This document shows positions 2,108-20,028 of a DNA stretch of 21,146 nucleotides, piece after piece; the first letter of the stretch is position 1; each line of letters starts with the position of its first letter. The notes below the pieces were generated by a model. The model saw only the letters and a list, made by a program, of their open reading frames with translations, searched no databases and was not told where the DNA came from. Position numbers and translations under genes: made by a program. Source of the DNA: Chromera velia (taxonomy: Eukaryota > Sar > Chromeraceae); NCBI GenBank assembly GCA_018398765.1, contig JAHBMJ010004325.1, positions 60,735-81,880 of the forward strand. The letters are read 5' to 3'.

Positions 2108-3189
2108 TTATTTCTTGACTTCGAGGTCTTTTGCGTGTTGTAAAATCTGCACAATGCTGCGATGACCGTGAGAAGAGGCCAGTGCCAACGCTGTCTTTCC
2201 GTTTTCGTCCTCGAGGTCCAAGCGGGCATTGGCATCCAGCAGCAGCTGTACAATGGACGCGTAACCCTTTGAGCAAGCACTCATCAGGGCTGTCGTTTGT
2301 GCTGATTCTGGACGTCTGGCTTGGCCTGCACCTCCAACAGGAGCTGCACAGCTTCTTCGTGTCCTTGCGAAGCGGCCAAGATCAACGCCGTGCTTCCCTT
2401 TTCATCCTGAATGTCTGGATTTGCCTTTGCATTCAGCAACAGAGGGACAATGTGGGGACTGCAAGAACTCGCAATAAGCAATGCCGTGTCTCCATCGCCC
2501 TGAATGTCAACAGCAGCATTAGCATCGAGGAGCATCTGCACGCTCGTCGGGTCCCCTCTCCGAGACGCGAGGATCAACGGAGTCCAGCCCCGCTTGTCTT
2601 GAACATTCACGTCAGGCTGGGCATCCAGAAGAACCCGCAGGATGTCGGCAAGGCTATAGTATTCAGCGTTGCAGGCATTAAAAACAGCCGTCTTTCCCTC
2701 TTCGTCCTGCAGGTTCACGTCTGCGTGAGCATCCAGCAGCACCTGCACGATGTCGAGCCGACGCACGCCGTGTGACGACGCACGCATGAGTGCTGTCCTG
2801 CCTCGTGTGTCCTGAATGTTCACATTCGCCTTGGCATTGAGCAGCAGTTGCACAACGGCTTTTGTTGATTCGCAAGAACCACCAAGTACCGATACGGATG
2901 CGTATATCAACGCTGAAGAACCTTCGCTGTCCTGAAGGTCCAAATTGGCCCCCGCGTCGATGAGCAGCTTCACAATGTGTGGCTGACCGTGGGAGGCGGC
3001 TTGCATGAGAGCAGTCTTCCCGTCGTCACTCTGGAAGTTCACGTTGACTTTTGCGTCGATCAGCAGCTGCACGGTATCCGTTAGGCCATTGGAGGCGGCA
3101 CAAGCCAACGCGATGGAGCCATGGAAAGGGTCCTGGGCGTCCAAGTTGACGGGCAGTGCCTCTCTCCTATTGCTCAAACGCGAAATGAC
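2108..3189 (-). CDS. second ankyrin-repeat block, likely last exon of the ankyrin/HET-like gene, frameshifted
   Basis: The frame encodes about eight clear ankyrin repeats of the form G-TALM-AAS-GH--IVQLLLDAKA-VN-QD, then reaches a stop at 2284-2286. One base off, the minus strand continues with two more good repeats (SACSKGYASIVQLLLDANAR, then a GKTALALASSHGH repeat) down to a TAA at 2108-2110. One missing A in the AAA run at 2296-2298 explains the break, so it is a real truncation or a homopolymer sequencing error. The ATG at 3231 is a weak start because the following 40 bases look like a pyrimidine-rich 3' splice site (TTTCCGCAG, AG at 3190-3191). An exon starting at 3189 is in phase 0. The upstream large exon offers a phase-0 donor at 3513-3514 (GTCAGC, like the gene's other donors), so this is probably the last exon of the gene starting at 8129. 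A separate gene remains possible. Confidence 0.75.
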
Positions 3190-3514
3190 CTGCGGAAATG
3201 GGAATGAAGGAATGATGAGTCTTCGCTGCATGTCGGTCTACACACATCTTGTTCTCACATGCAGAAAGGCCGGCTGCATGGCTGTTTTTCCAATTTCTCA
3301 CCCTTAATTCTTAGCCAACAAATCTCAGTCCGAAGGCCCTCGCTCGATGCATCGAAGTGGTGGCCTTCTGTGAGGAATCTGACTGACTCGCCAACTGAGT
3401 ACGTGACTACAGCAACAGGTAACCGGAGTTGCATACACTTGTCGCCGTCAGGAATGAAAACGAATTAGTAAATCTTCACACATGTGGAAGGAAACTACTG
3501 CAGTGCATGCTGAC
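3190..3514 (-). other. probable intron joining the HET-like exon to the second ankyrin block
   Basis: The donor ACG|GTCAGC at 3514 and the acceptor TTTCCGCAG| ending at 3190 are both phase 0, so splicing keeps the frame open. If this intron is not used, the upstream exon reads on to a TGA at 3476-3478, adding 12 residues. A second possible phase-0 donor (CAT|GTGTGA) lies at the very end of that frame. cDNA across this junction would decide between one gene and two. Confidence 0.5.
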
Positions 3515-6500
3515 CGTTGTCGCCCCGACAGATGCCAGGAGAGGAAGGTTAGTGTCGAGAGGAAGGGGGTTTTCTTGTGGGAAAAGGACACAAACGGCCC
3601 TACGGAGGCATTCTACTAAGGCCACCCGCTGTCGATGGCCAAAGTATCTTGCTTCATCTGCGCTCAAAATGCCTACCAATGGGCGGAGCTTGAGAACTGT
3701 CACGCTTTGAAGTTTTCCAAAGGCACCGAGCAGCGGCTCGAGGGAGGAACAAGCCAAAATCCGTTCCTCTTCGCTATCTGAACTTTGCTGCTGAGGGACC
3801 CAATTAAGTTTCGATCCGGCAAGATCGAGAACTTGGGGCTGGAACATAAGTCTCAGTGCGGAGTCGGCAGCTATGTACTCGACAAGTTCGGCCAGTTGCT
3901 CTGACGCGGTGTGGTCCATCTCTTTCCGGGCATTTTCCGAGGGAGCCCACGAGCCGTCCGCAAATACGTGGAGTTTTCGAACGGATCGCTGGAGAAATCC
4001 TTTGTAAAGTTCTTTCACGGGATCAGCATCTGACTTTCCGTTGGTGAACTTTTTTGTGTCAAGAGCGTGGCCGAAAGCTAGGGGGGTACTGGGGATGCGA
4101 AGAACTTGATGGGAGAGGGCTGTGCTCCTTTGTCCATCTTCTTCCTCTGCCCCGTTGTCAGTAACAACCTGCCCCGGGGGCTTGAAAGCGGTGACTGCGG
4201 ACTCAAACCAGCACCAACCCCGATCGAGATAGGGGGTGGCATTGGCAGCGCTCTTTGGGACCGCAGTCGATCGGAGAACGTATGTGTGGGAGCTGCTGTA
4301 GATGACATCCATTTTGCCCAGCCCTTGCTTAAAGAGGGCGTCCTCGGCATCAGTGCGTCTACCGCCAGGGGGGTGTTGGAACAGTGACATGAAGTCCCAG
4401 AAGACAAATGTCTTTACGGGGGAGCCTTCCTGCACCCACCAATGGTGCTCCAACTGCTTCACTACACTGCGGAGACGGAAGCCCTCGGGATCGGGGTGTT
4501 CTCTTGACAGCCAGGGATAGCTGATGGCGATGAGCTTGAAGGGTGCACCAATTTGGTGAGGGACTTCTTCTTCCATTTCACTGACGCTGAAAGGGGTACA
4601 ATCTACATTCAGGGCTCTTGCTACCTCTGCTACCTTTTGACGATAAGGAAGGCGGGTGTCTGCCTTCAGCAGGGAGATGAGAAGGTGTACAGGCCAGAAT
4701 ACGACTGCCTGACTGGTGATTAGAGACTTGAGTTCGTTCCAGTCCGATGCCATTTCGTTCGACCACGCGTCGACCATCCTGGCTCCATCTCTCAGCCTTT
4801 CAACCACCTGCACGTACCCCTTTTCATGTGCAAATGCGAGAGCGGTCTTGCCGCTTTGCTGCTGCTGGACATCGAGTGTAGCACCCCGACAGATGAGCAA
4901 GTCCACCAGGAGAATGTTGCCCTCTGATGCTGCACGCATGAGAGGTGTCTTTCCATCTGCATCGGAAATATCAACCGCGGTCATTTCTGCAGTCGTTACG
5001 AAAGGAGACGAGAGCAAAAGCTCCGCCATCGCCAAGTCCCCTCTCTTCACTGCTGTCATCAGTGGGGTCTCACCGGACGCGTTCATGTCTGTCTGCCTGC
5101 ACCCCGCACGGAGAAGCAGCAACACTGCGCCCGTGCGGCGGCTCTCGGAGGCCAGCAGGAGCGCCGTCTCCCCTTTCTCATTCTTGACCTCTGCATCGGC
5201 TTTCGCATCCAGAAGCAGGCGCACACTTTCAGTGTGGCCCTCGTGACTTGCATACATCAGGGCCGTACCACTAGTGCCCAGGATATTCACAGAAGCCCGG
5301 GCATCGAGCAGGACCCGCACTGTGCCCGTGTGGCCACCCTTTGCTGCACAAGCCAAGGCCGTATCTCCTCCACCCTCCTCATCTCCATACTTACCCCTCT
5401 TTCTGCTCTGGATGTCTGCCTTAGCTTTGGCGTCCAGCAGCTTCTGCACGATGTCTGTGTGGCCCTTTGAAGAGGCAAACATCAGCGCTGTCTTGCCGTC
5501 CTCATCTCGGACGTCAACGGTGGCCTTGGAGTCTATCAGTAGGCCCACAATCATTGTGTCGGAATGGTCACTGGAATTCTCCTGTTCATGACGGAGCCGC
5601 ATGTGGCCAGTGTCGCCCTTTGAAGCGGCCCACATCAGGGCCGTCGTTCCGCGCTTGTCTTGGGTGTTGACGCACGCCTTGGCATTCAGCAACAACGGAA
5701 CAATACGGCTGTATCCACTACCAGACGCGTACATTAAGGGGGTCATTCGATCGCTCTCACTTGAAATATTTACATCGGCCCCTGCTTCCAGGAGCAGGCG
5801 CACGATTTCTTCGGAGCTTCTGGAGGCCGCCCGCAGCAGGGCTGTGCCCGACTCACTCTTTGCATTTATATCTGCCTTAGCATCGATGAGCAGCCTGACA
5901 ATGTCTGTATGGCCTTTCGAAGAGGCTCGTATCAGAGCCGTCTCTTGTCCGTCTCTCAGGAGAGAATATTCGTCTGGGGTGAAGGACAAACGATCCAATT
6001 CGGCCTTGGCGTTGATCAGCAGGTGCACAATCTCAGTGTGCCCAGCTTCAGAGGCAGAAATCAGGGCTGTGCGCCCGCGCTTGTCCTGAAGGTCCAAGTT
6101 CGCCTTGGCCTCTATTAACAGCCGCACAATCTCAGTGTGGCCATTGTAAGCGGCCCTCATCAGGGCTGTCCGTAAAGTCTCATGCCTTCCCCTTCCCCAC
6201 CCCCCAGCTCCCACTCCCCATCCTTGCTGATCCTTCTGCCCAGCCCTCGCTTCCTCTTCTGAGTCGGCCTTGTCCTGAATGTCCGCATTGGCCTTCGTGA
6301 TCAGCAGCAATTGCACAATTTTGGTGTGGCCTTTCGAAGAGGCACAGAGAAGTGCCGTCTTTCCCTTCCCATCCAAACAGTCTACGTTGGTCTGGGCTTC
6401 GATCAGCAACTGCACGACCTCTGCGTGACCAGGGTTGGAGGCAGAAATGAGGGCAGTGTGTCCTCGGTTGTCCTGAATGTTCACATTGGCTTTGGCCTTG

Positions 6501-7329
6501 AGCAACAAACGGACAATGTCCGTATGGCCGTTGGAAGCTGCGTACATCAGAGCTGTTCTCAAAGTCACAATGTTTCGCCGAAATAAAAATGAAGCCAAAT
6601 CACCCCCCCCGGAATCCTGTTGGTCTTGTATGTCTGTATTGGCCCTGGCGTCCAACAATAGCTGTACAATGACGGCGTGACCTCTGTCAGATGCACAGAT
6701 CAGGGCTGTCTTGCCATTCTCGTCCAGCACGTCTACGTTCGTACCCCCCTGCTCGAGCTTTCTTTTCACCGTTTGCAGATCCCCTCCCCCTGCTGCGATG
6801 AGAAGTGCCAACTGCCCGGCAGCACCCGATTGTGCAGGGTCTACGCCTGTTGGATGGGGACCTCGTTGGAGCGCAGTCGGAGTTGGAGAGGGTTTGTGAC
6901 TGATCTCGCTGCAAGTCACGAGGGACAGACACAGATAACATAAACGCAGGGTGCAGAAAAGGCTTTAATTCTGTTACACGAGAGTGGGCGCGCATTGCGC
7001 GCCGAGGTATTTCGGATTCGTTATTGCGTACGAACGGAGTATAAGCGGAAGCACACAAACTTTGTGTTTTGTCACGGTGCTGGTCCCAGACTATAGAATT
7101 TGGCACAAGTGAAACCAAGCCTGTCTGGAGAAAACTGGAGTATAGAAGAGTAAGAGGTTTCTTATCTTGCTTGCTGGTCATTTCCTGTGCACAGAAATCG
7201 GCTGGGCAGGAAGACAGAAGGCAAAAACGGGAAAGAAGATAGGGTCAGAGAGTGAGAGAGCAGGAATGAATAGTACCCCGCATGCCAATGGACAGAAAGA
7301 GATGGAACCACCCACACACACACCCACCC

Positions 7330-7406
<77 letters not shown>

Positions 7407-8129
7407 CACGCAGAGAGAGCGAGCAAGCGAGAGAGAGAGAGAGAGAGAAAATTGAAAAAGGGCTGAGAGACACAGAGAGAGAGAGAGATACAGGACCAGG
7501 TACACAAACAGACAGATACAAAGAAGGAGATGTAGCATCGGTGGAGGGGGGGGAGGCTATCGCAAGATGAAAGAAAGAAGGGGACTGACCACTCAGCTTC
7601 TTTCATCTCTGCCGAGTCTCCTTCGAGCCCCTCTCTTGGCCCTGAAGTTCCTTCTCCTGCACTCGTCCCAAATTGACGAGCACCGGAAGCACCTGCAACA
7701 ATGAAAAGAGCAAATTGAATAGCAATTCAGTAACATGCTCTCATCAAGGGAACGGACTGATTGAAGAGGCAGATGTCCTTACCGTCATGTCAGTCTGGAC
7801 TTCTTACCCCATGCATCACTTGCGTGAAAAGGTTCCGCGCTATGGCAAAAAACTGGAGAAAACAAAAATCGCGCATCTCGATTCAAAACGGCACCATCAT
7901 TCACACATGTGTCTAGAAATTCGCAAGCACATTACAAAACGTACATTTTATTGGGGGATTCACGTATGATCCCAGACATGCAGAGCCATTATTCCATCTC
8001 AGAATCTGCACTGCGCGTGTGTGTTCAATTCGACTGACCTTGGGGGGCATCACGCGGCTGTCCATGCGCATCCTTATTTGGAAGGTCTGCCGCCCTGTCG
8101 CCCTTCTTTGTCGATGCAGAGCAACCCAT
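3476..8129 (-). CDS. large ankyrin-repeat protein with HET-like domain and N-myristoylation motif
   Basis: Three exons are supported: 8129-8039, 7692-7590 and 6908-3476 (or to 3515 if spliced onward). Both introns have GTCAGT donors and TTGCAG acceptors, and the phases match (1/1, then 2/2). The protein starts MGCSASTKKG, where Gly2, Cys3 and Ser6 form a classic N-myristoylation/palmitoylation signal implying membrane attachment. A disordered linker follows to about residue 95. About 18 ankyrin repeats run from roughly 97 to 776, several with loop insertions. A HET-like domain spans roughly 850-985, with LIAISYPWLS at about 857, FWDFMSLFQ, a DVIYSSSHTYVL segment and RGWCWFE at about 961. The last 220 residues are unassigned. 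Length is 1208 residues if it stops at 3476. Ankyrin repeats bind proteins; HET domains in fungi drive self/non-self responses. A membrane-tethered sensor or scaffold is inference. The frame of exon 3 has no ATG at its head, only GTG, which supports the upstream exons. Confidence 0.85.
4145..4552 (-). other. HET-like domain within the ankyrin protein
   Basis: The order of motifs follows the fungal heterokaryon-incompatibility (HET) family: a leading SYPW (family: SYxWG), a middle FWDFMSLFQ (family: WIDALCINQ), acidic residues then a methionine and IY before a beta-strand (family: M--IY--A), and RGWCWFE (family: R-W--QE). The spacing of about 105 residues from first to last motif is reasonable. 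Similarity is by eye, and the family is divergent; a distinct protist family sharing the fold is possible. No profile search was run. Confidence 0.5.
7309..7490 (-). repeat. compound microsatellite in intron 2 of the ankyrin gene
   Basis: On the plus strand this is CCCA repeats and CA repeats (7309-7354), then CGCA repeats to about 7410, then GA-rich tracts at about 7417-7448 and 7472-7488. On the sense (minus) strand it reads (TC)n, (TGCG)n and (TGGG)n, and lies within the intron between 7589 and 6909. Long apparent reading frames across it are artefacts of the repeats. Confidence 0.9.
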
Positions 8130-9233: not shown

Positions 9234-10623
9234 ATGCTGCTCTTTTGGGCGGCTCTTTGTGTGCTCTGCAGTCATGTGAGAGCGTTCACGCCGAATGGGA
9301 GATGGAGTATACGGAAAGAGAGGAGGGCGAGGAGGCAGCCGTTGCAACGGATAGGTGAGACAGCTCTCTTTTCTCTGTCCTTGTTTGTGTTGCCTGGCAA
9401 AATGCGATTGATCCACTTTTCCCTCTTTTTGTTGCAACCCTTGTTCATCTCGTCTCCTCTCTGCCTCCCTTTTCTCTGAAGGAAAGTCGGTACCAGCCAG
9501 ACCAACCGTTGTCGAATTCCCGCGCAGCACAAGCCTGTCTCGCCTTTCCCTCATGTCTCCGTCTGATTCTGTGCTCCACAAGGGAATCAGCTTGCAAAGA
9601 AAGAAGACAATGAAACGCACTGGCACGCGCACACATACAAAGAGAGAGAAAGCGAAGAGGGGCGGCCGAGGAAGAGAAATTTGCACGTCTCCAGACATCT
9701 CTTTCTTCTTGTCATTTGGACGCTTCAGCGTCTGCAGTCGGATCCTCTTATCCCTCCCCTCTCTTGCGATCCTCTCCATGGCACTCCTCTGTCCATCTCA
9801 TCTCCTTTGTCTTCTTCTTCTTCTTCTTCTTCTGCTGCTGCTGCTGCTACTGCTGCTGCTTCTTCTTCTTCTTCTTCTTTTCCGTCCCGCATCCTCCCTC
9901 GTCCAATGTCCTTTCCTTCTTTTTTTCACTTTCCCAGTATGCCCTCCGCTCCCTTCTCCCCGCTTTCGTCTTTATTCTCTTTCCACCCTCTTTCCCCCTG
10001 TTTCTTTCCAGTCCTCCCCTGCCCTCTTCACGTTGTCCTTTCCGACTCTCTCTCTTTCCCCCCCTCTGAGACGTCCAGTCTCTCTCTTCTCTTACTCGCC
10101 TTCGAACTTTATCTCACTCCCTGGCGCGTTGATCTGATCAATTCCCGCTTGGTTTAAGTTCCCCCCCTCTTTCCTTCTTTTGTCTCCCCCCCTCTTTCTC
10201 TTCCCAGACGATCCAACGGTTCTGCGGGGCTTTGAAATTTTATTCGACTCAGAGGACGCCATTCCGGAGTACGAGTCAGTCAGTCAGTCATTTGCTTCTT
10301 TTGGGACAAACAAAGGCAATCGCAATGTCATTGCATGGTGACGAGGGCACCACTATACCTCCCCTACCGCCCTCTTGACTGAGATCGGAGGATCGGAAAG
10401 AAGCACCACTCAGAGCCATTCAGTGAGACAAGACGCGAAGAACCCACCAAGCAGAAGCTCAGTTCGTCAGACAGTCAGACAGGGAAGACCGTCAAAAAGA
10501 GGGAAAGATGAAAAAATGGACAAAGTGACCAGCGGGCGAGTAAAGGGACATGGAGAGCGACAGAATGAAAAGATAGCAGTAAGGCGGATTTCGCTACCAA
10601 GTAGATCTATCTCCCACTGCCTC

Positions 10624-10689
<66 letters not shown>

Positions 10690-10711
10690 TGTGTGTCCCT
10701 GTGTGTGTGTC

Positions 10712-10752
<41 letters not shown>

Positions 10753-11245
10753 CCCTGTGTGTGTGGGTGTGAGTGCGTCCGCGTGTGTGCGCAGCCCAAA
10801 TGACTGCATCAGTCTGTCTCTGAGAGCCATGCAAGACATGGAGGGCGTATTCAGCAAGATCAAGTCGAAGGATAGGATCATCAAGAAGCAGATCCTCCTC
10901 GAGAAGGACGCTCAGATGAGAATCGCGAGAATCAAGGAGGAAAGAGACATTCGGGTCCGTGGGTGGGAGGGAGGGTGTCGCCCTCAGTCAGGTAGTTGTT
11001 CGTCCCGGACAAGCATTCATTCGTACACGTGCACAGAAAAGATCCATGAATGCGTACACTGAATTTCCGACGAAGAAAGCAGAGCACCTACACACGGAGA
11101 GAGAGAGACTAACATTGGTGTGGTATGCGGACTGTTTCCCCACCTTTTTGTATTCAGATTCCTCATTTCTGAGTCTTCAACGTTGTGCATACATCGACGC
11201 ACATTTATGCACAAAGATGCGATGCGTGTGAGTGCCCGTGTGTCA

Positions 11246-11280
<35 letters not shown>

Positions 11281-13486
11281 CGCGCGCGCGCGTGTGTGTG
11301 TGTGTGAGAGAGAGAGATAGTGTGATTGTGAATGTGAGTGTGGTTGTGAGTGTGTGCAGTACATCTACAGCGTGGGGGCGGAGAAGGAGTGGGATTTCGA
11401 CTTTGGCCAAGATGATCCGCCTCCCCTTGCACCACCAGGGTGCGTTCGTTTTGTTTCTTCATTTGAGTACAGACGCACTGGTATCGGCTGCGGGTTGTTT
11501 GTTCGACCAGCGTTTGTGTTCGTTGTCCACATTATTTTTGCATGGGTGCATTCCGTTGTGTTCATGCGAAAGGAACGAAGACGATTGACGTAGATGTCGA
11601 GCTGAAGGGTCAGTCTGACGGCGCATCCATGTCTTTCTGTGTGCCTGGTTGGTCTGTATTCTCCCTTAGTTTGCGTGCCTCCCTTAGTTCACCTCGCTGT
11701 TGTCTGCCGGTTCGAAAACAGGCAGATACACAAAACCAGAACACAAACTTGTGTTTGTTTGTTTTGTTTGTTCTTTTGTTTGTTTGTTGTTTGTTCGTTT
11801 GTTTGTTTGTTTGTTTGTTTGTTTGTGTCTTTCTTCTCGGCTCCTTCTGTGTCCTTGCAGCTTCCCTTCTGTAATTTGATGCCGCCACAGGAAGGAAGAT
11901 GTCTGTCTGTCTGACTTTGTGCGCGTTAGTTTGTATTGTACATTCATCACATTCAGAGTATATATGCTCTCATTTCGGTGTGCCCTCACGTAGATGACCG
12001 TGCATGCATGTGCATTTGTTCATTATTCTATTTGTGTGTATATTCTCAGGAAGAGTGAGTTTATGGCCTATATGGGGTACGACAAGCCCGTGAAGGGCAG
12101 AGAGACGGCCACCCGAAAGCGAATGGTGGAGATGGCCAAACAGATGGACGCCGACTACGAAGCAGACTATGCGAGGCTGCTGGCGAAAGGAGCTGAAGAC
12201 GAGGCGCCCGTCTCAACCGTGCCGGCCGCAGCCTTCACGGCACCCGCAACGTGAGTAGAAAGAAGTAAAAAGCGGCTGAGCATTCTTGTAGCGATCAGCA
12301 ACAGTCAGACCACGGCAACAGACTTACTTGCGAGACTCACAAGAACAACCACGTATCAGAGAGAACCTCGAAGCCGAGTGCTCACACAGTGTTCAGTGTG
12401 TTTCCTTCCGGCCTTGCTTCGTTCTTCTCACTGGCAGTTGTCTTTCTGAAGAGGACGAATTCGAGTCAGAAAGGCCGACAAGGGACGAATGACGATCCAA
12501 AGAGAGAGAGAGAGAAAAGAAATGCGCAGAGAAAGAGAGAGAATATCTGCACGCAAGTGGAAGGGATGGGAAGGGAAGCACGGTTTTTGTCTCTCGAGTA
12601 TTGGCCAGAAGAAGGGAAAGAGACGAACGAGGATGTTTTGAAAGAAAAAAGAAGGAGTAGCGTCGTGTTACCTGCCTTTGAATGGGACTTGGTTTCTCGT
12701 CCGCCTGTGTTCGTTGGTTTTTGCTCTCTTCTTCCTTCATTGAATCACAAAAGGTTTGGCTGATTTTTCCTCTTTTTATTTTTCAATTCTTCCTTTCCCT
12801 TGTCTTGTTTCTTGAAGTGTGTTCTGCTGTCGTTGCTCTGCTTTTTCGTCGTGCTTCCTCTCTTCTTGCTCATTCCGGATGTCTCCTTTTCCTTGAGCAC
12901 ACCGATGGCAAGATCATTACATAACATCTATCTGCGTGTGTGTGAATCCACCCTCTCCTCTCCTCTCCTCTCCTCTCCTCTCCCACTGCATGCAGCCCCG
13001 TGACTTCCCTCTCCGGTACCTCCTCGTCCTCCTCTCTGAAGTCTGCCTACTCTGGGGGTGAGTCAGACTTACGAGGGTCTCTCTCTCTTTCCCCGTGTCT
13101 GTGTGTGTGTCGGGGAGAGAGGGGGGGGGGGTAAGATGCTATGTTTATGTGTCTGTGTGCCAGTGAGGTAGAGCTTCTTGAGCTTGGTAGGTCACAAAGT
13201 GGGTGAGAGTGAAAGAAGATGGAAAGATGGTGGGGAGGGCCGAAGTTTTGTTCCGTCTTTCCTGTTTCCCCCGTGCTTTTCTCTGTATCGTTGCCAGTCA
13301 GCCTGCCCGTCTCTCCCTCTGGCTCTCGCTTTTTCTGCCTTCCCTTGGTGTTCATTTTTGCTTTGTGAGTCAGTGAGCAGAGTGTGTCTGCGTGCCTATG
13401 TTTCTACACGCGCTTGCACGTGTCCATTGTTTGTCAGTCTTTGTCCAGTTTCGAGGGAAGTCTCCCTCCCCACTGTCTCTCTGTCT

Positions 13487-13523
<37 letters not shown>

Positions 13524-13551
13524 TTTCTCTCTTTCTCTATCTCTCTCTCTT

Positions 13552-13600
<49 letters not shown>

Positions 13601-13987
13601 TTCTCTATCTCTCTCTCTTTCTCTCTCCTGCCTCTCTTTCTCTCTGAGTGTGTGTGCGCGCACCCGTGTGTTTGTGTATATCGATACGAAGAGAGTTGAC
13701 TCCAAATTTCTTTTTTTTTCGCATTCTTCATCCATCTGGTTTCTCCTTTGGGAGGCTTTTTGTTCTCCCTTTTTTCTGGCGGTTCATTTCAATCTGTTGC
13801 ATTTATATGTTCCATGCATGGGCTTACAGGTCTCTCCTCCACAGGCGCTGGGTATAAGAGGCCGGCATACATGGAGGGGATCGATGACGATGAAGACGAT
13901 GGGGATGAGGAGGGCGAAGGGAAAAAAGAGGGCGGCCTGGGAGGGTTGGGACTAGGAGAATTGGGAGACGACGACGAAGACCTCTGA
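9234..13987 (+). CDS. predicted plastid-targeted protein of unknown function, seven exons
   Basis: Exons are 9234-9354, 10208-10274, 10795-10954, 11360-11439, 12050-12250, 12996-13057 and 13845-13987. They sum to 834 bases, 277 residues plus TGA, and every junction agrees in phase (1, 2, 0, 2, 2, 1). The start gives a hydrophobic signal peptide (MLLFWAALCVLCSHVRA) followed by FTPNGRWSIRKERRARRQ, basic and beginning with Phe, as in bipartite targeting to plastids of red-algal origin. The mature part has an acidic segment (GFEILFDSEDAIPEY), a charged helix likely to form a coiled coil around residues 70-115 (KSKDRIIKKQILLEKD), a WDFDFGQDDPPPLAPPG stretch, a second helical segment (YDKPVKGRETATRKRMVEM), an Ala/Ser/Thr/Pro-rich linker, and a very acidic Gly-rich tail ending DDDEDL. 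I do not recognise the family. The exon-2 donor could instead be at 10269 or 10287, both in the same phase. Confidence 0.85.
9813..9884 (+). repeat. (CTT)n/(CTG)n microsatellite in intron 1
   Basis: Trinucleotide CTT repeats flank an inner block of CTG repeats, within intron 1 (9355-10207) of the plastid-protein gene. The whole 3' half of this intron is strongly pyrimidine-rich on the sense strand up to the acceptor at 10207. Confidence 0.9.
10628..10755 (+). repeat. (TC)n then (TG)n microsatellite just before exon 3
   Basis: About 45 bases of TC repeats run into about 80 bases of TG repeats broken by TCCC. The tract ends about 40 bases before the exon 3 acceptor (AG at 10793-10794), so it occupies the place of the polypyrimidine tract. 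Confidence 0.95.
11246..11318 (+). repeat. (TG)n(CG)n(TG)n microsatellite before exon 4
   Basis: TG repeats flank an alternating CG core, followed by a short GA run, ending about 40 bases before the acceptor at 11359. Alternating purine-pyrimidine DNA of this kind can adopt Z-form; that is general knowledge, not shown here. Confidence 0.95.
11742..11826 (+). repeat. (TTTG)n microsatellite in intron 4
   Basis: Imperfect TTTG tetranucleotides on the sense strand of the intron between 11440 and 12049 of the plastid-protein gene. Confidence 0.95.
12955..12985 (+). repeat. (TCTCC)n tandem repeat abutting exon 6
   Basis: Five-base pyrimidine repeats end about ten bases before the acceptor at 12994-12995 and form its polypyrimidine tract. 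Confidence 0.9.
13490..13647 (+). repeat. (TC)n microsatellite in intron 6
   Basis: A long TC tract with occasional TTTC and TATC interruptions on the sense strand of the intron between 13058 and 13844. The long reading frames over it (Ser/Leu or Arg/Glu dipeptide repeats) are artefacts. Confidence 0.95.
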
Positions 13988-14797
13988 GAGCAAAGAGACA
14001 AAGAGAGGTAGGCAGGGAAGGAGAAAGATGTGCTGAAGTGTTCATGGTGACTCCTCGGACAGAGCGGAGAGAAGGAGAGGACAGAGCAGCGCAAAAGTGG
14101 ACCGGCAGGGACGGAGAGTCGAAGTGAAGAAAAATGGTGGTTCTACGCCAAAGCAGCCGAATCCTGTGTGGGGCGGGATCGTTAAAATTTTGTGCCGGTC
14201 GTTCTATTCAACATTTTTCTACTTTCAGCCCTTCAAAGGATCGAAGGTGCAGTGACTTAATGTTTTGAATGTTTTCACTTGTTCACAAAACTTTAGAAAA
14301 AGGTAGCTATAAAGCATTGACCGTGGTCTTCCTAGTGGTCTTCGCACTCTAATAATATATGGTACTAATTTAATTGATTTTTTTTTTTTTTTTGCTGTAA
14401 TATAGGCCTAGGCCCAAGTTTTAGACCTTTTGGTCAGAGCTTTGGAATGAGACTAGGAATGACTTCTTGTAGTATCACACAAAGATACTGGTAGAAACCT
14501 ATAAGTACTTATAACTTAATTCAAGGTTGTAACTTGTAAGCAGAAACAAGATGTAAATTGGGATTCCGAAAATATGATGAGGTTAATGTTTCACCAGATG
14601 TTTTGACTAGTATTCCAAGAAGTCATGCACAGATTATATGCAGACTTAAAAAGTTAAAAAATATAGACTAGCTCCTGTTGTAATGATGGTTAAACTAGCG
14701 CTTAATTAACCAAAGTGCCTCGTATATTGCCGCCTAAGTCGATACTTCGTACTAGTTTTTAGACGCCTATTTATAGGCCGATAGACATGGCGTACGC
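13988..14797. other. 3' flank of the plastid-protein gene grading into AT-rich DNA
   Basis: To about 14160 this is likely 3' untranslated sequence. From there the DNA becomes AT-rich and holds a T15-type run near 14378-14393. A 40-odd-codon open stretch at about 14545-14676 (plus strand, beginning near CKLGFRKYDE) has some protein look but no start, no partner and no family I know. I see no gene. Confidence 0.45.
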
Positions 14798-19021: not shown

Positions 19022-20028
19022 CACGAACGGGGACTGAGGTACTCATGCTTTCATGCACACCACTCACGCAAACACCCAGCACACAAGCAAAACAAAGGAT
19101 GAATGGAAATGATGAAGCGGTCAACTGTCTACGCAAAAAAACAATGCATGCTCGGTATCCACACGCACAGGAGAAAGAGTCCGCTTTCCTTGTAGTGAAT
19201 CGTCAGCAGTTTTCTTTTCTGAAAGCCGTGCATGGCTCCGTGACTCTGTAGAACGAACACCAAAAAGACCGGCCATAAATTGATTCCTGTACAAGTTGAA
19301 AGAACCAACAACGCATGAGCTCTGTTCTTGGCCCCCCACCTGCTGGTATTGCCTTAAAGGCGGTCGGCCCGATGCCTCTGTAGAAGGAACGCCAGCCCTC
19401 GTCTCTGTACATCTTCTGCACGCAGTCGAGCGTGTTTCTGCAGAAACAGGGACATCGATAAATCCGCGCTTAAGTACATACAAACACACATATTAACAAA
19501 CAGATCAGGATATGTACCGAGACGCAAAAAAATGCATATCCACGCATTGCACGAATGCACTGCAGGGTGTCGCTCAAAAGAAGGCAGTCAAGCAGGCAAT
19601 AATTTTTGACTGCAGAGGGAGGAATTTACACCGGCAAAAGGAGACTGAAAGGAGGCAAAAATAAAGGCCGGGTGAAAGGACAAAAAACACAAAGAGACAA
19701 ATGCATCGAAAGAAGAGAGATAAACAGAGGTGGCAGGAGTCAAAGAGAGGAAAATTGAGAGGAGGAAGCAAGCATGAACCACACATAGAGCCACCCACTC
19801 ACACACTCAGAACCACACATAGAGCCACCCACTCACTCACTCACTCACTCACTTGAAGACCAGAGGCTTCCCGTCAACGCCGTTGTTCATCATCCGTTTC
19901 CTGTACATACACACACACACAAGACGCATGCATGCCCCCTAGACATGCGTCTGAAAGCATGAGGATGTTACGAGAGACACAGAGATAAAGAGTTGAGTTC
20001 GGTTGTGTGTGAGTGTCTTTCTGCATTC

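Follow-up and report, generated by a model that had tools for sequence, protein, structure and literature searches.

The window analysed here, the whole 21,146-nucleotide stretch of Chromera velia DNA at positions 60,735 to 81,880 of contig JAHBMJ010004325.1, carries on its minus strand (8129–2284) a gene in which a conserved central domain lies between two arrays of ankyrin (ANK) repeats (Table 1). In our sequence-based gene model, four exons with GT–AG splice sites are joined in frame into a protein of 1497 aa that starts with MGCSASTKK. The fusion proposed in an earlier, sequence-only reading of this DNA, namely an MGCSAS start at 8129 followed by an ANK array, a domain and a second ANK array, is present as described, and the exon of the second array indeed joins in frame in the model.

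Pfam matches to Ank_2 (1.7e-112 and 7.4e-81) identify the product as an ankyrin-repeat protein. That reading had counted about 18 repeats before the domain and about ten after it; the arrays are real, with 16 Pfam Ank (PF00023) stretches upstream of the domain in the 1162-aa open frame, eight in the exon ORF at 2284–3237, and two more in an overlapping ORF in another frame. The modelled protein ends at the stop at 2284, which leaves these last two repeats outside the frame of exon 4. A Pfam search of the exon 3 and exon 4 ORFs (E<=10) gave no NACHT or NB-ARC match. A region of about 220 residues between the domain motifs and the second array had been called unassigned, which applies to the window's own tail, where no match was found, but not to the FTNGxD...VKxLYxxF block inside it, which is conserved in the family.

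Table 1 Modelled features of the minus-strand ANK gene, in window positions
Feature	Position	Strand	Basis or remark
Exon 1 (modelled)	8039..8129	-	starts MGCSASTKKGDRAAD...
Exon 2 (modelled), low-complexity linker	7590..7692	-	frame and GT-AG sites
Exon 3 (modelled): about 16 ANK repeats, then central domain, then tail	3515..6908	-	open frame 3476-6964
Conserved domain, 327 aa, used as query; N-terminal helical-looking stretch and FTNGxD...VKxLYxxF block	3797..4777	-	tblastn, alignment
Core, motif order SYPW...HPDP, FWDFMSLFQ, IY, RGWCWFE	4142..4552	-	32-member alignment, cyanobacterial relatives
Codon of the invariant Glu in RGWCWFE (W+4)	4202..4204	-	invariant column E192
Exon 4 (modelled), second ANK array	2284..3189	-	Pfam, paralogue loci, splice sites
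Two more ANK repeats, other frame, past stop 2284	2108..2401	-	Pfam

The start of exon 1, MGCSASTKKGDRAAD, is what we take to be a myristoylation/palmitoylation-like motif, and lipid anchoring at a membrane had been proposed from it. As a trait of the family this was rejected, as an MGC start lies upstream in just one of five paralogue loci, a candidate one, and is not conserved. On this evidence, membrane anchoring does not appear to be a family trait, while the window model does carry a putative motif for lipid anchoring.

Elsewhere in the window, a mitochondrial carrier fragment lies on the minus strand at 19203–19469 (Pfam Mito_carr, E 6.5e-8), and an intron-rich-looking gene occupies about 9237–13990 on the plus strand, beginning with MLLFWAALCVLCSHVRAF, which looks like a signal peptide by eye.

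A domain family fused to ANK arrays

We scanned the genome (177.8 Mb in 4040 contigs) for paralogues with the 327-aa domain and obtained 121 tblastn matches, which a hand count assigned to 76 distinct loci at E<=1e-3. Neighbourhoods were fetched for 50 of these (L001–L050), and same-strand ANK repeats occur inside the fetched stretch at 39, in the same ORF as the domain at 28. The arrangement differs between groups of loci: in L001–L020, ANK repeats lie upstream in 19 of 20 and downstream in 19 of 20, the locus lacking the downstream repeats being at a contig end; in L021–L037 all 17 have them upstream and none of the 17 has them downstream within the fetched stretch; and only two of the 13 loci L038–L050 have any. 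In a tree of 40 genomic cores and three cyanobacterial cores, members with ANK repeats on both sides form one clade (98/94) and those with upstream repeats another (91/85), and the other seven members sit on long branches whose placement lacks resolution.

The order of ANK exon, domain and second ANK exon is kept in all five ten-kilobase paralogue loci. A phase-0 donor after GATE-like residues occurs at the same place in five of six genes, including that of the window, and the matching in-frame acceptor before V[IV]xRL in four of six. Recurrence of the arrangement together with the retained splice junction shows that the fusion is a family trait rather than an artefact of one locus, and the conserved splice junction makes it unlikely that the domains belong to separate genes, an outcome that the sequence-only reading had named as fatal to its proposal. 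Given the 76 loci and the order kept in five of five paralogue loci, the occurrence of the domain and of its architecture is more than chance. We found no published description of this family in open-licence PMC full text.

The C-terminal stretches of three paralogues without ANK repeats (L050, L046 and L047) look LRR-like, with Pfam matches under the cut-offs in two of them (LRR_6 at E 0.001 in L050, LRR_4 at E 0.29 in L047) and none in L046. The tail region thus has an LRR-like look in relatives, under Pfam cut-offs.

Relatives of the domain extend to cyanobacteria. The first lead, weak at E 0.1 in tblastn, pointed to a hypothetical protein of 379 aa from a Pseudanabaena plasmid (WP_126390537.1), which profile comparison confirmed as a relative (Prob 96.8%, E 2.4e-10). 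As a contig query this single protein found nothing, and a four-row alignment query found a relative in Calothrix elsteri; a third relative comes from another cyanobacterial genome (G299). Across 386 cyanobacterial genomes there were three matches at E<=0.01, two of them solid and the third (E 0.004, with stops) discounted. Compared with the 32-member protist alignment, the cyanobacterial relatives score hhalign E values of 4e-10 to 2e-6. They are proteins of about 390 aa without ANK arrays. By sequence, then, the domain belongs to a family that has neither a name nor a Pfam model and that has cyanobacterial members.

In Calothrix, a Thoeris ThsB TIR-like gene (L052 3801-4292; PADLOC ThsB 3e-65, Pfam ThsB_TIR 1.2e-27) lies about 700 bp downstream of the relative. 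The Pseudanabaena plasmid relative (L051 1448-6153) sits among AAA ATPase, VWA and TPR genes.

One alternative account places the action of the proteins outside the cell or inside a partner organism, as might happen in symbiosis, with ANK arrays fitted to foreign targets rather than serving as internal sensors. The modelled MGCSAS N-terminus is not a secretory signal and would suggest the cytosolic face of a membrane, and the cyanobacterial relatives are small and lack ANK repeats. Symbionts and intracellular bacteria are, on the other hand, described as enriched in ANK proteins (PMC4986451). We consider this account quite improbable.

Comparison of the domain with HET and TIR

Six positions of the domain are invariant across all 32 aligned members (P95, D96, D128, G187, W188 and E192). 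The motifs SYPW, FWDFMSLFQ, IY and RGWCWFE occur in the order that had been claimed for them, an order that is HET-like: against the HET blocks LSYxWG, WxDxxCxxQ and RxWxxxE, the corresponding motifs of the window, SYPW, WDFMSLFQ and RGWCWFE, show deviations. The three-block pattern used here combines the blocks of the bacterial HET protein WP_317389201.1 with a typed HET consensus. The Glu at W+4 is a candidate catalytic residue by analogy with TIR and HET, and the W-x-x-x-E spacing of RGWCWFE resembles the WCxxE of TIR domains.

Membership of the Pfam HET (PF06985) or TIR families was, by contrast with the motif order, rejected on a profile search at E<=10, which returned no match for the whole ORF, for the isolated domain or for any of the 32 members. 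The three cyanobacterial relatives have no PF06985 match, no member matches any other relevant Pfam family at E<=10, and no sequence relative of the domain was found in the PDB at E<=10. A PF06985 search over the C. velia genome and the 386 cyanobacterial genomes gave nothing, in a setting where the controls also went undetected (0 of 14 in the own genome), so that it does not speak for absence. For the core and the cyanobacterial relatives, PADLOC and NCBIfam yielded nothing beyond two NCBIfam matches far under their cut-offs. No viral relative was confirmed in three scans, and phages yielded six weak matches, the best at E 3, each covering less than 80% of the query.

In profile comparison of the protist family against 59 targets, HET and TIR sequences scored close to background or no better than it (Prob 1.7% for the bacterial HET protein, 1.0% for the typed consensus and 0.2% for ThsB). 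With the cyanobacterial sequences added, the two HET scores were reached by one and three of 60 shuffles, and the score against ThsB (Prob 5.5%) by none of 60. The cyanobacterial profile alone matched the bacterial HET core at Prob 39.9%, E 3e-4 and an hhalign score of 31.2, and none of 600 shuffles scored as high against WP_317389201.1 (shuffle maximum 25.5). Of 91 real sequence segments compared with this profile, the best (27.4) was another segment of the same HET protein and the next reached 20.8, while the score against the typed consensus, which lacks the third block, was reached by 14 of 60 shuffles. The HET link, which would run through the cyanobacterial members and one bacterial HET protein only, is suggestive and unproven. 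Structure prediction with AlphaFold from two-row alignments gave unusable models of the domain and the core (pLDDT 34.9 and 40.6).

In the literature HET figures as a remote relative of TIR and as an inducer of cell death (PMC10890737, PMC12881547). Most likely, the domain falls within a wider HET/TIR-like group, and its fold would then be HET/TIR-like. The sequence-only reading had seen in the fusion a candidate recognition system outside fungi. An immune-like architecture is indeed present, but an occurrence outside fungi is not new in itself, given a 2014 account of non-fungal HET homologues in stramenopiles, haptophytes, choanoflagellates, green algae and bryophytes (PMC4986451); alveolates are not among the groups that this account names as having them.

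At E<=0.01 the genome has a single TIR_2 match, at another locus (L071, G000:C643:32711-32971; 27.5 bits, under the family cut-off). A Sulfitobacter plasmid (L056 801-3577) carries a bacterial HET-domain gene next to a gene with a TIR domain, the two in opposite orientation.

Repeat variation and selection

For the domain, dN/dS was estimated from 14 copies (91 pairs, of which the 29 with 0.1<dS<1.5 were used), giving a median of 0.19 and a range of 0.14–0.28; the domain is under purifying selection. These values, together with long open frames in most of the listed copies, argue against a mobile or decaying repeat family with little function and partly made up of pseudogenes, an account for which in-frame stops in four copies (L003, L008, L013 and L021) and the break in frame where exon 4 of the window copy ends might be cited, and which is already very unlikely. 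Outside the domain, the values are higher: among the close copies L002, L006 and L007, where the domain gives 0.22–0.26, dN/dS is 0.80–0.85 in the upstream ANK array, 0.65–0.82 in the tail after the domain, and 0.56–0.89 in the downstream ANK exon, where two of the three pairs were compared over 41 codons.

We collected 207 ANK repeats from the scanned loci. Six close copies, the youngest ones, contributed 51, of which 46 were kept and five, each a diverged last repeat, dropped. In these 46 repeats the most variable of the 33 positions were, in order, 3, 13, 2, 5, 14 and 10, with a mean entropy of 2.49 at the six against 0.40 elsewhere, a ratio of 6.2. The ratio is 2.0 in the window's own array, 2.8 in L010, 2.2 in the rest of clade I and 1.8 in clade II, where five of the top six variable positions are the same as in the close copies. 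The window copy shows the pattern weakly, and the claim rests on its close relatives.

In an artificial ANK library, the same six positions (2, 3, 5, 10, 13 and 14) were the ones chosen for randomisation as outward-facing (PMC3308923), and for fungal NLR ANK repeats five positively selected positions are reported, all but one on the concave face (PMC4986451). Because ANK surface positions are described as generally variable (PMC8781854), the place of the variable positions says little, and it is the contrast with the framework that counts.

At the DNA level, framework codons are almost uniform, including their silent sites. Differences of two or three nucleotides are seen in 47% of repeat pairs at the six variable codons, compared with 1.1% at the 26 framework codons, and four-fold sites (0.089 per site) would lead one to expect 2.2%. 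Codon 1 is likewise variable, with 34% of pairs differing to this extent. Even in the ten pairs with no framework difference over 78 nt, a mean of 4.1 of the six codons differ. For a fraction of 0.54 of the repeats, the closest repeat belongs to the same gene, compared with 0.17 when labels are shuffled (0/1000). A 29-nt framework stretch, searched with up to two mismatches, gave at least 100 matches and none for the reversed control, and among the matches listed all lie on ten contigs, each about 1.5 kb or less from a copy of the domain. The repeats are homogenised and carry localised whole-codon diversity. Repeats that form a superstructure, are homogenised and vary on the binding face, the type of array diversification described for fungal NLRs, are found in the six close paralogues and weakly in the window, and in those paralogues the immune-like architecture that had been suggested is borne out.

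When five of the variable positions are pooled, pN/pS comes to 0.97 (bootstrap 0.76–1.23), not above 1, and that of the framework is 0.64 (0.49–0.82); a value near 1 counts against positive selection in the strict sense. It would fit relaxed constraint, and hence an account in which the ANK arrays serve as ordinary scaffolds and the central domain has an unrelated enzymatic or binding function, the pattern arising by recent amplification of repeats and weak surface constraint with no recognition involved. Variability of the same positions in older arrays and the lack of a HET or TIR HMM match in the domain also fit such an account; relaxed constraint should, however, leave mostly single-nucleotide differences, whereas differences of two or three nucleotides are far in excess of expectation. 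We regard it as possible, if on the unlikely side.

The six ligand-facing codons might also be renewed by a dedicated process, such as templated exchange of short cassettes between loci, that swaps entire codons and leaves the remainder of each repeat uniform, which would amount to an antibody-like ANK receptor repertoire coupled to a HET/TIR-like effector in a protist. The pairs that are uniform over 78 framework nt yet differ at about four of the six codons, by several nucleotides each, would be compatible with such a process. We nevertheless think it doubtful: 59 of the 70 codon types also occur in older copies, so that ordinary gene conversion and selection on an old codon pool offer a simpler account.

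A possible recognition repertoire

What we observed, a domain family of recurring architecture with purifying selection on the domain and homogenised repeats of localised variation, is best read as a recognition repertoire that would work like the fungal HET-NLRs. We favour, with modest confidence, a large family of recognition proteins in which the ANK arrays sense, the HET/TIR-like domain is the constant output, and the arrays are diversified by exchange. The two arrays flanking the domain would form the sensor, and the domain the constant effector or signalling part. Copies would diversify through duplication and exchange of ANK repeats, with the repeat framework homogenised and six outward-facing positions per repeat kept or made diverse. 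A ligand on the arrays might expose or cluster the central domain, which could then signal or kill, perhaps enzymatically, with the invariant Glu of RGWxxFE at its active centre. Ligand binding, the HET/TIR-like fold, an enzymatic or cell-death output and a role in immunity or allorecognition are the parts of this model that we infer.

Plants, animals and fungi are known to have intracellular receptors that diversify rapidly. If our reading is correct, the fungal recipe of a constant death-type domain with homogenised, hypervariable repeats arose or persisted elsewhere, and a chromerid alga, placed beside the apicomplexan parasites, would possess such a repertoire. With a protist family of this size, combining a bacterial-type signalling domain with ANK repeats varied on the binding face, it becomes testable what such cells recognise. 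The family also provides a conserved domain for which Pfam has no model and of which one cyanobacterial member lies near a Thoeris ThsB gene.

Among known systems, the TIR domains of plants, animals and bacteria differ from the domain described here, which has no TIR HMM match and profile scores near background. The cyanobacterial proteins share with the protist family a homologous core with all motifs, but are rare and lack ANK repeats. Their blocks, ISHRWG...GFWYDYSCLPQ...RGWCFAE, include all three of the HET type and resemble those of the Sulfitobacter plasmid HET protein WP_317389201.1 (LSYAWG...FWIDAFCVPP...RTWTYQE), although that protein is not significantly similar to the profile of the protist family itself. 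From the fungal HET-NLRs the window protein differs in lacking a NACHT or NB-ARC match and, in its domain, a PF06985 match; since these tests fail, it is not a HET-NLR member. Its domain lies between two ANK arrays whereas theirs is N-terminal, and its host is not a fungus. Like HET-NLRs such as HNWD (HET-NACHT-WD40) and those with conserved ANK, TPR or WD repeats, as these are described in PMC4986451 and PMC12881547, the family joins a constant signalling-type domain to tandem repeats homogenised both within genes and between them, and it shares with them variation at a few positions on the binding face of the repeats and a HET-like order of motifs.
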